Of a stretch of DNA of 64,000 nt, positions 24,545-29,099 are shown in pieces. The DNA is from Actinomycetota bacterium (lineage in GTDB: Bacteria; Actinomycetota; CADDZG01; WHSQ01). How positions within the stretch are numbered: position 1 is the stretch's first letter; each line of letters starts with the position of its first letter. Below the pieces are notes generated by a model. It worked only from the letters and a program-made list of their open reading frames with translations, ran no database searches and was not told the origin of the DNA. Made by a program: the position numbers and the translations under genes. The stretch covers positions 289,834 through 353,833 of the forward strand of contig JAUJPD010000001.1 of assembly GCA_030447315.1 (NCBI GenBank), written 5' to 3'.

Positions 24545-24650
24545 GGCCCAGACCCTTTCGTTATCGACCGCTGCCGGACGCGAGAAACCAGGGTCCGCTG
24601 CGGGGGGATGAGATGCAAGGTTAGCACGAGAAGGGGGCGAGCGTACGATC

Positions 24651-25504
24651 TCAACTCTCGGGCACGAGCTCGTCGAGCGGCAGAGGATCGGGCGGCTCCG
24701 GCACCTCGATCGGTCGGTTGGGCTCCGAGATGCTCATGTCCAAAGTGAAGCTCGCTCCTGAGAGGGGGCCGAGGATCTCGCTCAGGCCCACCTCTTCGCC
24801 TAGCGCGAGGTCCACCTCGATCAGAAGGCGGCGAAGCAGCCGGTCCTCGGCGCCCGTGATGACTTCGATGTGGGAGGACTGGACCGCGTTCTCGACCCGC
24901 TCGGCCTCGTCGTCCTCGATCGTTTGGAAGGCGGTGCCGGACCCGAACCTCTGGGCGATCGAGAAGAGATCGTTGAGAGCCGTCACCACATCCAGCTCGC
25001 CGGTGATCCGATCCACCTCCTCGCCGTCGAGGCCCTCGCCCTCTTCGAGCTGGGGATCCACGAGCCACGAGCCGATATCTGTGTCTTCGAAGGGACTGCC
25101 TCCCTCGCCGGACCCGCCCAAGAGGCCCTCGCTCTGGTCGGGGGGAGCTCGTAGGCCTGGTCGTCCACCTCGATGAAAGCGCGTTCGCCGGTGGAGACGA
25201 AACCCTGGGAGGCGCCGTCGGCTCCGAGATCGGTGTATTCGAGGTCCGCTATCGGAAGTTGCCCCTCTTCGGGTAGCTGGAAGCTCCCGATCAGCTCGAA
25301 CCCGGCGACCTGCGCATTGCGCGCGTCTTCACCCGGAGCCGCTTCCGCTTGCACGCGCAGCTCCAGGATGCCGCTTCGCAGCTCTTCGAGGTTCTGGGCG
25401 GTCTCTGCGACCACGTCCCCGGGACCGGTTGAGCAAGAGGTCAAGATCAAGATCAAGCCGAGCCCCAGCGAGACCGCCAGCCGCTTCCTGCCGGTGGTGG
25501 GCAC
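24651..25504 (-). CDS. Secreted lipoprotein (LppX/LprAFG-like), split by one apparent frameshift
   Basis: N-term MPTTGRKRLAVSLGLGLILILTSCSTGPG lipobox; reading continues from ORF 24983..25504 into ORF 24651..25121 at a C6 run (~25137..25146). Confidence 0.65.
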
Positions 25505-25626
25505 TAAGGCGATTCCTCGGGCGGCGGCGAGCTCTCTTGCGAGTGGTGGTCGCGGAGGCCGGGCTTCTCTATAGGTGAAGTCGCCCCCGGTTCATAACCG
25601 GAGGCCGCGGGTGTAAACGCAGTGAG

Positions 25627-26775
25627 TTAGCGAGGAACCGCGGAGAGCGTTCCGAGGCTGGCGTCGGTAACGTAGTAATACCGCCCCACCACCTCCACGT
25701 CGATCGCGTAAGGAGAGCCCATCACGCCGGCGAGCTCGTTGCGCGCGCCCCTGGCCCGGTAGCCCTCCCGCGGGAGCAATCCGGCCCGAGCCAACATCGA
25801 AGACGCCCACACCAAGCGACGACTGAGCCACATAGAGACGGCTGCCCACGAGGTCCATCCCCTGGAGGAACAGATGTTCGGCGGGGTCGACACCGACATG
25901 CAGTCGCCCCGTCCTCTTCACATCCCCGAGGTCGCCGGCGTCGAGCACCATCACCTGCGGCGGGATCTGGTCGTTGAACCAGTATTCGGTCGCGGCATAG
26001 ACCGTTCGGGACGTCTTGGTCGAAGCCACCTCTATCTCGGCGAGGCCGACCTCGCTCCAGGACCCGACCTCGACCGGATGGGCGGGGTTGGAGAAGTCGA
26101 AGATCTGTAGCCCGGTCCTCCCGGTCGAGACGTAGAGCAACGGTCGTCCGGTCATGGGGTCCTTCGGGTCGTAGAACAGACCCGCCGAAGCCGGGCCCCC
26201 GACCTTGAGGGCCGGAAGGGCATCGACGTGCACGGGAACGAGAGCTCCGGTCGTCGCCTCGAAACGGCTGACCACCATCCCGTCGATCGCGTCCAGGAGC
26301 ACGACATACTCGGCGCCCCCCTGGCTGAGGTGCTGCACCCGGTAGGAGCCGCCGGCGGGAAGGTAGAAGGCCAGCTTCGGGTCCTTCGGGTCAGAGACGT
26401 CTAAGACGTGCAGTCCCTCCTCGTCGAAGGTCTTGGTCTGCCGGGCGTAGAAAAGCCACTTCCCGTCGTCCGAGAACGACAGATCACCGTCGAGGGAATC
26501 CTTGGCGGTGTCATAGCGGCCGACCACTTTGGGAGACCGCGGGTCGCTGGTGTCGAGGATCGCGACGGTGCCCTCATCCCGCTGCAGGACGGCCCCGATA
26601 TCGCCATGAACCTCGACGCGGCCGAGACCGGCTTTCTTGGAGACCTCGATCACACGGGGCCGGGACCGGATGGAGCTGAACGGGAGTTTCGCTTCGAAGC
26701 AGCAGCGTAGGGAGCCTGCAGCAACATCAGCGACAGCAGCAGGGCGAGGGCTGAGCGCGGATGGGTTCGGGTCAT
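25627..26775 (-). CDS. LVIVD-repeat (beta-propeller-like) secreted protein with apparent frameshifts near both ends
   Basis: Repeats VAILDTSDPRSPKVVGRYD, LHVLDVSDPKDPKLAFY, LQIFDFSNPAHPVEVGSW; signal peptide MTRTHPRSALALLLSLMLLQAPYAAA in one frame, C-term ARAGLLPREGYRARGARNELAGVMGSPYAIDVEVVGRYYYVTDASLGTLSAVPR in another. Confidence 0.65.
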
Positions 26776-26845
26776 GCCGAAGGATTCGCCCCCACGAGCC
26801 CGGTTCCTTCGTGGGGGGCAGGGACCTCGGCGAGGCGCGACCCCT

Positions 26846-27232
26846 CTACTGCGGGGCCGGAAAGCCGACGACCTCGGCGAGGGTATCGACCACCTCTTCC
26901 ATGGGTCGATCCTTCGGGAGGAATCCGTCCGCGCCCAGCTCGCGCGCCAGACCCCGATGGTGCTCGTCGTCGATGCCCGACAGGACGAGGATCTTCGTCT
27001 TCGGGCAGCACTGTCTGATTTTGGATACGGAGGTCAAGCCGTCCATCTGCGGCATGGCGACATCCAGGACGACCACGTCGGGGTTCAGCTGTTGGACAAG
27101 ATCAACGGCTTCGAGGCCGTTCGTCGCCTCACCTACCACCTCGAAGCGGCCGTCAAACTCGAGGTTCGTGCGGATCAGCGTACGAAGGTTGGCCAGGTCG
27201 TCGGCTATCAGCACCCGGATCCGTCCAAGCAT
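26846..27232 (-). CDS. Single-domain response regulator (receiver)
   Basis: IRVLIADDLANLRTLIRTNLEFDG...DVVVLDVAMPQMDGL...LVLSGID. Confidence 0.85.
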   Translation of the reverse strand: MLGRIRVLIADDLANLRTLIRTNLEFDGRFEVVGEATNGLEAVDLVQQLNPDVVVLDVAMPQMDGLTSVSKIRQCCPKTKILVLSGIDDEHHRGLARELGADGFLPKDRPMEEVVDTLAEVVGFPAPQ

Positions 27233-27282
27233 GCCCTCATCATGACCTGTCCAGATCGGTGGCGGCGATCGATCCAGGAGGT

Positions 27283-27547
27283 GGAGCAGGGCGGAGGGAT
27301 TCGAATTTTCGAACCCCATGGGGCTGGAGGCTTTGGAGACCAGCGGGCTTTTTTAAGCAGGGCGGGAGGGATTCGAACCCCCGGCCCATGGGCGCGGCTG
27401 GAGACCAGCGCGGCTTTTTTAAGCAGGGCGGGAGGATTCGAACCCCCGGCCCATGGGCGCGGCTGGAGACCAGCGCGGCTTTTTTTAAGCAGGGCGGGAG
27501 GGATTCGAACCCCGGCCCATGGGCGCGGCTGGAGCAGCTTTTTTAAG
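27283..27547 (-). repeat. Tandem array of four degenerate tRNA-Trp 3'-half units (~58-75 bp each)
   Basis: Minus-strand units of the form CTTAAAAAAGCCGCGCTGGTCTCCAGCCGCGCCCATGGGCCGGGGGTTCGAATCCCTCCCGCCCTG, next to the intact tRNA-Trp. Confidence 0.85.
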
Positions 27548-27622
27548 CAGGGCGGGAGGGATTCGAACCCCCGGCCACTGGTTTTGGAGACCAGCGCTCT
27601 GACCAGACTGAGCTACCGCCCT
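27548..27622 (-). tRNA. tRNA-Trp (anticodon CCA)
   Basis: AGGGCGGTAGCTCAGTCTGGTCAGAGCGCTGGTCTCCAAAACCAGTGGCCGGGGGTTCGAATCCCTCCCGCCCTG; complete cloverleaf; CCA end not encoded. Confidence 0.92.
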
Positions 27623-27644
27623 ATGAGGCAGCAGTCTAGTCGCC

Positions 27645-27992
27645 CTAGGCGGTGGCGACGCGGCCGCGGCGGGTCTTCCACACCGCGGCGCCGGCACCGA
27701 CGGCGGCTACGGCGAGGCCCGCCGCGTACCTGTTGCGATGGCGGACCACATGGCTGCGCACGTCTTGCCCGCGAGAGGTCCGATAGGGGATCGAAGCGAG
27801 CTGGTGGAACAGCTCGGGAGGGGGAGTGACGGTCTCGCTCCTCAGCTGTTCGAGGGAGCTGAACAGTGTCTGGTAGTGGACAAGCTCGTCGGCGCAACCA
27901 GCGCACGAAGAAAGATGTCGCCGTACCCCGAGACCCGTGTCGCCGTCTCTCGTGTAGCTCGGAAGGGCCTCTCGCACCTCTTCACACCTCAT
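27645..27992 (-). CDS. Putative anti-sigma factor (zinc-finger HxxxCxxC type)
   Basis: MRCEEVREALPSY...RRHLSSCAGCADEL plus C-terminal TM-like segment; overlaps the ECF sigma gene by 4 bp. Confidence 0.8.
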   Translation of the reverse strand: MRCEEVREALPSYTRDGDTGLGVRRHLSSCAGCADELVHYQTLFSSLEQLRSETVTPPPELFHQLASIPYRTSRGQDVRSHVVRHRNRYAAGLAVAAVGAGAAVWKTRRGRVATA

Positions 27993-28582
27993 CGCTCTTC
28001 TCCTTCGAACAACATGCCTCTCAATCTCTTACGGCCTCGATGCACCCGGACCTTCGCTGCGGTCTCGCTGATCCCAAGTTGTTGCGCCATCTCCTCGATG
28101 CTCATCCCATAGACGTCTCTCAATGTGACTGCGGTTCGGTACTGCTCCGGCAACCGAGCCAACGCTGCCTGCAACGCCTGCACCTCGATACGTGCTCCTG
28201 CCGTGGCCTCGACGGATCCCGAAGATGGAAGCTCCGTCAAGACATCGTCTTGCGAACCCGACTCGTGACTCTGCCTACGCCTGCGGCTGCGGTGCTTGGA
28301 CAAGGCAGAGTTGCTGGCGACCCGATACAGCCACGTCTGAAACATGGCGTCTCCCCGGAACCCATGAAGACCTCGCCATGCCTTCAGATACGCGTCCTGC
28401 GTAGCCTCGGCGGCATCCTGCGGATCTCCCAAGATGCGGAGACACAACGTATAGACGTCCCGGTGCGTTGCCTTGACCAACTCGGCCCACGCTCGCTCGT
28501 CACCGTTCTTGCAACGTTCGACGATCTCTGCGGAGACACGTTCGGACGACGCTCCGTCCCGGTGATCGCTTGGACGCCTCAT
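27989..28582 (-). CDS. ECF-type RNA polymerase sigma factor
   Basis: DPQDAAEATQDAYLKAWRGLHGFRGDAMFQTWLYRVASNSALSKHR ... ALARLPEQYRTAVTLRDVYGMSIEEMAQQLGISETAAKVRVHRGRKRL. Confidence 0.9.
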   Translation of the reverse strand: MRRPSDHRDGASSERVSAEIVERCKNGDERAWAELVKATHRDVYTLCLRILGDPQDAAEATQDAYLKAWRGLHGFRGDAMFQTWLYRVASNSALSKHRSRRRRQSHESGSQDDVLTELPSSGSVEATAGARIEVQALQAALARLPEQYRTAVTLRDVYGMSIEEMAQQLGISETAAKVRVHRGRKRLRGMLFEGEER

Positions 28583-28646
28583 GTGGGCCGAGGTTACAGG
28601 GGCCCCTCCGACGTTGTCGCTCAAGGGGCCAGCCCGCGGGCGGCGT

Positions 28647-29099
28647 CTAGTCGGACTCGAAGATCGATTCGAGACGAGACAGCAGCCGGGCTTTGTCCAG
28701 CTCGGCCTCACGCCGCACACGCAGCTCCTCGTTGGAAGACGTCAGCAGGTCTTCTATCGAGTTCACGAGCTCGTCGTCGTCGAACGGCTTCGTGAGATAG
28801 GTGTCGGCACCCAGCTTGTAGCCGCGAACCCAATCGGACTCGGAGGTTTTCGCGGTGAGGATGAGCACCTTCACCCGATCCTTGATGCCGGACGACTTCA
28901 ACTCTTTCAAAACGGTGAAGCCGTCCATCTGCGGCATCATGATGTCGAGAACCAGGACGTCGGTGGGGTCATCGGCCAGCATGTCGAGAGCCTGGCGTCC
29001 GTTCTGAGCGACACTGACCTTGTGGCCTTCTTCGACGAGGATGGTGCTCAGCAAGCTCCTGATCGCGGGATCGTCTTCGGCGATGAGGATCCGGGTCAT
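28647..29099 (-). CDS. Response regulator (receiver domain, short C-terminal helix)
   Basis: RILIAEDDPAIRSLLSTILVEEGHKV...LVLDIMMPQMDGFTVL...LTAK...TKPF. Confidence 0.88.
   Translation of the reverse strand: MTRILIAEDDPAIRSLLSTILVEEGHKVSVAQNGRQALDMLADDPTDVLVLDIMMPQMDGFTVLKELKSSGIKDRVKVLILTAKTSESDWVRGYKLGADTYLTKPFDDDELVNSIEDLLTSSNEELRVRREAELDKARLLSRLESIFESD

Follow-up and report, generated by a model that had tools for sequence, protein, structure and literature searches.

Tandem copies of a tRNA-Trp 3' half directly downstream of the intact gene in an Actinomycetota genome, and arrays of similar design behind other tRNA genes in the phylum

The tRNA-Trp locus and its array

The window (the whole stretch of 64,000 nucleotides that was analyzed) contained an intact tRNA-Trp(CCA) gene followed, with zero gap, by four head-to-tail units on the minus strand at 27287-27547, as assembled in this metagenome-assembled genome (MAG). 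Every unit had a remodelled anticodon arm and retained the greater part of the final ~29 nt of the gene (Table 1). The 3' boundary of the tRNA was called at 27547/8, and unit limits were counted past the discriminator base. A first-pass annotation made from the sequence alone had described a tandem array of tRNA-Trp 3' halves beside an intact gene, and this was confirmed by ARAGORN, Rfam, and Tandem Repeats Finder. The latter reported a single array at 27334-27576 (period 66, 3.8 copies, 92% match) with a score of 407, while the next-highest repeat score in the window was 60. ARAGORN and Rfam called one tRNA-Trp at the locus and no complete cloverleaf in any unit; the D-arm and 5' acceptor strand were lacking from the units, as it had stated. 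A 22-nt T-arm/3'-acceptor string, searched for with up to 3 mismatches and with indels disallowed, was present at the tRNA, U1, and U3 only, each time exactly, with 0 occurrences expected by chance; U2 and U4 have small indels.

U2 and U3 were near-identical and the flanking units were diverged, U4 most of all, in agreement with the earlier description of the distal unit. U4 retained CTCCAAA of the tRNA loop, but its T-loop was duplicated and one acceptor C was gone; homology past this unit ended ~2 nt beyond the tRNA 3' end. An anticodon remnant had been claimed for every unit, but its fuller form was confined to U2-U4, that of U1 having collapsed to GCTGCTCCAGC. Unit ends read CCCTG-CTTAAAA, with CCA absent. 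The segment described as novel in the middle units (GCCGCGCTGGTCTCCAGCCGCGCCCATGGGC) was indeed shared between them, but in the predicted folds of U2 and U3 its ATGGGC is able to base-pair with GCCC of the acceptor strand copy, replacing the absent 5' strand. U2 was predicted by folding to form the same T-arm/acceptor minihelix as U3. Because the terminator scan gave no sense-strand intrinsic terminator ahead of the array, the array is probably transcribed as the 3' trailer of pre-tRNA-Trp.

Table 1. Features at the tRNA-Trp(CCA) locus of the window
Feature	Position	Strand	Remarks
tRNA-Trp(CCA), intact, donor of the copied 3' half	27548-27622	-	ARAGORN; Rfam RF00005, 71.7 bits; identical in same-genus G001
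Unit 1 (U1), 58 nt	27490-27547	-	acceptor 3' strand whole; T-stem minus one G
Unit 2 (U2), 66 nt	27424-27489	-	anticodon-derived hairpin; GGGC/GCCC-capped T-arm; T-stem minus one C
Unit 3 (U3), 66 nt	27358-27423	-	best preserved; final 29 nt as in tRNA-Trp
Unit 4 (U4), 71 nt	27287-27357	-	most diverged
Predicted T-arm/acceptor minihelix of U3 (GGGC-C-T-arm-CC-GCCC)	27360-27387	-	fold, z about -2 vs shuffles
Terminator-like hairpin with T-run	27397-27409; alike at 27462-27474 and 27527-27539	+	consensus match only

The genes upstream of tRNA-Trp encoded an ECF sigma factor and a short protein whose zf-HC2 match was below threshold, and the order sigma factor, zf-HC2-like protein, tRNA-Trp was conserved in several relatives. 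Downstream of the array were a response regulator, an LVIVD-repeat protein, and an unassigned ORF, followed by secE-nusG. The LVIVD-repeat gene (25592-26653 and 25627-25899, minus strand) was apparently frameshifted, its C-terminal part running on in another frame. In several relatives secE was the downstream neighbour of tRNA-Trp, at most about 300 bp past it at loci L007, L009, L011, and L037, whereas in the window 2.7 kb (24545-27286), with the response regulator and the LVIVD-repeat protein, separated the two. In relative G007, tRNA-Trp and a copy of its 3' half (attR) were separated by a 4.9-kb element that encodes an integrase (PF00589, E = 1.7e-19). The 4.9-kb integrative element in tRNA-Trp at locus L041 had its integrase at one end, and a strong hairpin with runs of A and T came after its attR. 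Since secE spacing varies among relatives and the G007 element sits at this position, the tRNA-Trp 3' flank is an insertion-prone site within the family.

When 60 relatives were compared with the array region, the match spanned the tRNA only, besides the attR copy in G007 and other tRNAs. The array was absent from all of the relatives' tRNA-Trp loci that were read, including that of same-genus G001, whose tRNA is 100% identical, so that as sampled the array at tRNA-Trp is specific to this lineage. In the genome of the window (G000), the T-arm-pair pattern described below matched this array alone.

Copies behind other tRNA genes in Actinomycetota

Genomes were surveyed for the pattern GGTTCRANTCC occurring twice (or with RR) with the T-arms 41-71 nt apart, a spacing that excludes two whole tRNAs. 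Raw matches were found in 17 of 397 genomes of the phylum set, 19 of 296 in the class of G128, and 18 of 299 in the class of G204. Matches were kept if at least 21 of 24 bases were identical over the T-arm and 3' acceptor and if a tRNA ended at the first T-arm. After this filter, 20 distinct genomes of about 917 Actinomycetota (~2%) had 3'-half copies behind a tRNA: 8 of the 397 genomes of the phylum set, behind an intact tRNA, and the rest from the two classes. The tRNA genes with such copies included Arg, Met, Ser, Ala, Leu, Asn, Trp, and others.

Multi-unit arrays comprised six units behind tRNA-Arg(CCT) in G128, five units, one of them degenerate, behind tRNA-Met in G427, and multiple units behind tRNA-Arg(TCT) in G204, tRNA-Ala in G156, and tRNA-Ser(GCT) in G807. 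Like the window array, these carried the T-arm and 3' acceptor of the adjacent tRNA in tandem units, here of 45-69 bp; unlike it, they had unrelated spacers and followed different tRNA genes, which points to independent origins, save within one genus or genome. Arrays of the same design have thus arisen repeatedly behind different tRNA genes in Actinomycetota. No description of arrays of this kind beyond rtT was found in the open-access papers searched.

The tRNA-Met array was kept in four species of one genus (G427, G592, G657, and G424), with flanks 88-91% identical, and its units were homogenised within species yet diverged between species; those of G424 and G592 end at contig ends. G807 had two more copies, one behind tRNA-Ser(GGA) and one (L234) with no complete tRNA predicted adjacent. 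In the genus of G807 and G881 (L241, L242, and L246), tRNA-Ser(GCT) and (GGA) of the former and tRNA-Ser(TGA) of the latter were followed by ~67-bp units in which the spacers were related and the T-arm and acceptor matched the local tRNA. The copies in G696 and G552 look like simple tandem duplications of 41-43 bp, with short stretches of homology at the junctions.

Two other kinds of locus were seen in the course of this work. At L055 (G076), a tRNA-Ser 3'-half copy adjoined a gene with a weak match to Y1_Tnp (IS200-like transposase), just below the curated cut-off. Five loci (L254, L255, L257, L260, and L261) carried a short palindrome, GTAGCTCAGGGCTTTAGCCCTGA or its inverse, which is dispersed in genomes of one family (f20) and has the D-arm motif inside, yet bears no relation to tRNA.

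Copies in these arrays reached the 3' end of their own tRNA, while the 5' limit was variable, 22-48 nt upstream. The contiguous match to the tRNA was 22-48 nt in 21 of 22 tabulated units, the exception (G630) being a 9-nt match shortened by a one-base indel. No tRNA-linked arrays of 5' halves with the D-arm motif were found in 397 genomes. This control is less sensitive, as the D-arm motif occurred in 29 of 91 local tRNAs and the T-arm motif in 81 of the same 91, a set already enriched for T-arm matches; a looser D-arm pattern was too noisy for use. Because the control motif covers fewer tRNAs, the 3' bias of the copied halves is only suggestive.

In all five arrays that copied an anticodon-loop UAA (U36-A37-A38), this triplet was altered (L059, L048, L050, L198, and L211), sometimes as the sole change in the anticodon arm. 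The changes were A37 to C in Arg-TCT, Arg-CCT, and the Met array of G322, U36 to C in Asn, and remodelling in the Met arrays of the G427 genus. Loops without UAA were intact in Arg-ACG (G744) and in the window's U4. The pattern was spotted post hoc in a small sample; it could reflect avoidance of integrase overlap, disabling of free anticodon hairpins, or chance.

Origin of the array

Recurrence, 3' anchoring, tandem structure, and species-level homogenisation in one genus were all observed. The explanation we favour, with a probability of roughly 0.6, is that the window array is a partial duplication at the 3' end of the tRNA gene that was subsequently amplified, that it is probably a tRNA trailer, and that it is mostly passive. 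A single event at the tRNA-Trp 3' end would have placed a second copy of the 3' half downstream, attached to a remodelled stretch of about 37 nt; the two candidates are template switching during replication and a scar of site-specific integration. The unit would then have multiplied head-to-tail through slippage or unequal crossing-over between copies, as suggested by the near identity of U2 and U3 between diverged flanking units. The array is probably read through as part of pre-tRNA-Trp and cleared by 3' processing, and self-folding of U2 and U3 would limit disturbance of tRNA folding. Purifying selection on the units seems to be weak or absent, given the single-base indels in their T-stems and acceptors, and no specific function would be needed. 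Slippage suffices to make the arrays of G696 and G552, because these look like plain tandem duplications with short junction homology. The window-type array looks more like an insertion of "spacer plus 3' half", compatible with an att-scar origin, because the last unit has no spacer after it. Against a passive origin, persistence in four species and the related Ser spacers of G807 suggest that some arrays may have outlasted chance decay, and random slippage leaves the repeated UAA alteration and the exact 3' limit unaccounted for.

An account in which integration scars make up the whole array is possible, though the odds are well against it. A tyrosine-recombinase element would have used the tRNA-Trp 3' half as its att site and left serial attR-like halves after element loss, the spacers being element-end sequence and only the att cores remaining. 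Integration of AICEs with tyrosine recombinases in actinobacteria is mostly into tRNA 3' ends (PMC3218068), and in G007 the integrase-bearing element has this same tRNA-Trp as its attachment site. The variable distance to secE in the family, and the fixed 3' end with a variable 5' limit, as expected for identity from the crossover to the 3' end, are also in its favour. However, such elements are kilobases long, whereas the copies here are 58-72 bp apart with much the same spacer repeated. The window array is not an element flanked by direct repeats of the tRNA 3' half, and there was no second 3' half near secE and no far-end copy in the window. PF00589 integrases were absent from the contig of the array (C15), and an integrase was found at only 1 of 19 array loci (L043), with one downstream ORF scanned at each.

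It is improbable that the array encodes functional RNA in the manner of rtT, the trailer being cut into small tRNA-like RNAs (T-arm minihelices and remodelled anticodon hairpins) that would act as a sponge, decoy, or signal. The layout is the same as that of rtT, for which PMC4986893 reports a released RNA, the predicted folds of U2 and U3 are self-contained, an array persists in the tRNA-Met genus, and the UAA alterations were without exception. On the other hand, three of the four window units have T-stem or acceptor indels, the predicted fold of U1 is not above its shuffles (z = 0.06), the array is missing in sister species, and there was no RtT match in the window or in relatives. It is comparably doubtful that arrays of 3' halves behind tRNAs form a recurrent actinobacterial RNA class, evolved and homogenised repeatedly, whose units are cut from the trailer into tRNA-mimicking sRNAs with an anticodon loop disabled by loss of UAA, which might serve, for instance, as decoys for proteins that bind or cleave tRNA. 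Tandem terminators that shield the tRNA from antisense transcription on the plus strand can be given hardly any credence. The plus strand had 4 terminator-like sites in 1.6 kb, 3 of them inside the array (in U1-U3), against 1.2 expected, each built from an anticodon-derived hairpin and T-run, but the support is a consensus match only, the identified neighbouring genes are all on the minus strand, and the other arrays do not share the T-run after the hairpin.

A chimeric or collapsed repeat produced by MAG assembly is very unlikely, even though the genome is in 22 contigs and 92% complete, the named relatives are MAGs, and contigs of G424 and G592 break within such arrays. Several indels and substitutions distinguish the units, the array is interior to a 460-kb contig, and similar arrays occur in many independent assemblies, for example at 3.85 Mb of the single contig C1 of G128. 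The first-pass annotation had held that absence from close relatives would count against the array, and at tRNA-Trp the array was absent from every relative examined; similar arrays were found independently at other tRNAs and persist across species in one genus, so the absence is taken as a lineage-specific event and not an artefact. Among the options that the annotation had listed, a tRNA-derived repeat and scars at the tRNA 3' end are still live.

Several other candidates were rejected. Reverse transcription of a tRNA was set aside because the copies lack CCA and the genome, 92% complete, gave no match to PF00078. A phage or plasmid origin was likewise set aside: the array had no match in 50,697 phage and 72,556 plasmid records, and the 26-nt unit core was not in IMG/VR. 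Close T-arm pairs occurred at 80 viral loci; two of these had alike copies, one an N-interrupted tRNA-Glu pair and one without a tRNA, and neither was such an array. An inverted tRNA copy in the spacer is not a universal trait, as it exceeded shuffles only at a SeC locus and at the Ser loci of one genus. A coding array on the plus strand was also discarded: its 95- and 351-aa frames had no Pfam match, and unit lengths of 58, 66, 66, and 71 are not all in frame.

The window array is real, lineage-specific at its locus, and one of a recurrent class, and it is most likely a passive product of tRNA 3'-end duplication. What was a one-locus curiosity of enteric bacteria thus becomes a recurrent outcome behind many different Actinomycetota tRNA genes. 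Whether tRNA 3' ends are hotspots of short tandem duplication, whether integrase or replication is the cause, and whether any such array is a functional RNA thereby become testable questions. It is also a warning for annotation, as the repeats yield spurious frames (GGRDSNPRP-like peptides on the plus strand) and break assemblies.

Comparison with known systems

AICE and prophage attachment sites resemble the window in having the tRNA 3' half duplicated downstream, and G007 uses the same tRNA-Trp; they differ in that the window has no element between copies, and its four units are short, in tandem, and share one spacer. REP/BIME palindromic repeats are likewise short, tandem, and hairpin-bearing, but the window array is not dispersed, and its genome had no second array-like match.

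The first-pass annotation had found no standard feature type that fits, which is not quite right, as the rtT repeats of E. coli tyrT/tyrV (tpr; RF00391) are an analogue in layout. In both cases head-to-tail repeats on the same strand directly follow a tRNA, each unit ends in the 3' terminus of that tRNA, and the array is a probable trailer of the tRNA transcript. In E. coli MG1655, about 3.1 units of 178 bp come after tyrV, and each closes with no more of tRNA-Tyr than its last ~20 nt. The window units, in contrast, are 58-71 bp with the tRNA-Trp T-arm, 3' acceptor, and anticodon remnant, and no Tpr-like frame was assigned. The RF00391 (RtT) covariance model gave four matches in the E. coli locus (L210), and none in the window at 26000-29000 or in six loci from other array genomes, so that the window array shares the layout of rtT yet is outside the rtT family. 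According to PMC4986893, which cites Bosl and Kersten (1991), the rtT RNA is freed from the tyrT transcript and affects the stringent response; for Salmonella, a VNTR of 175 bp is listed at rtT RNA (PMC2658671). By analogy, the known instability of rtT would support amplification as the source of the tandem units behind tRNA-Trp.
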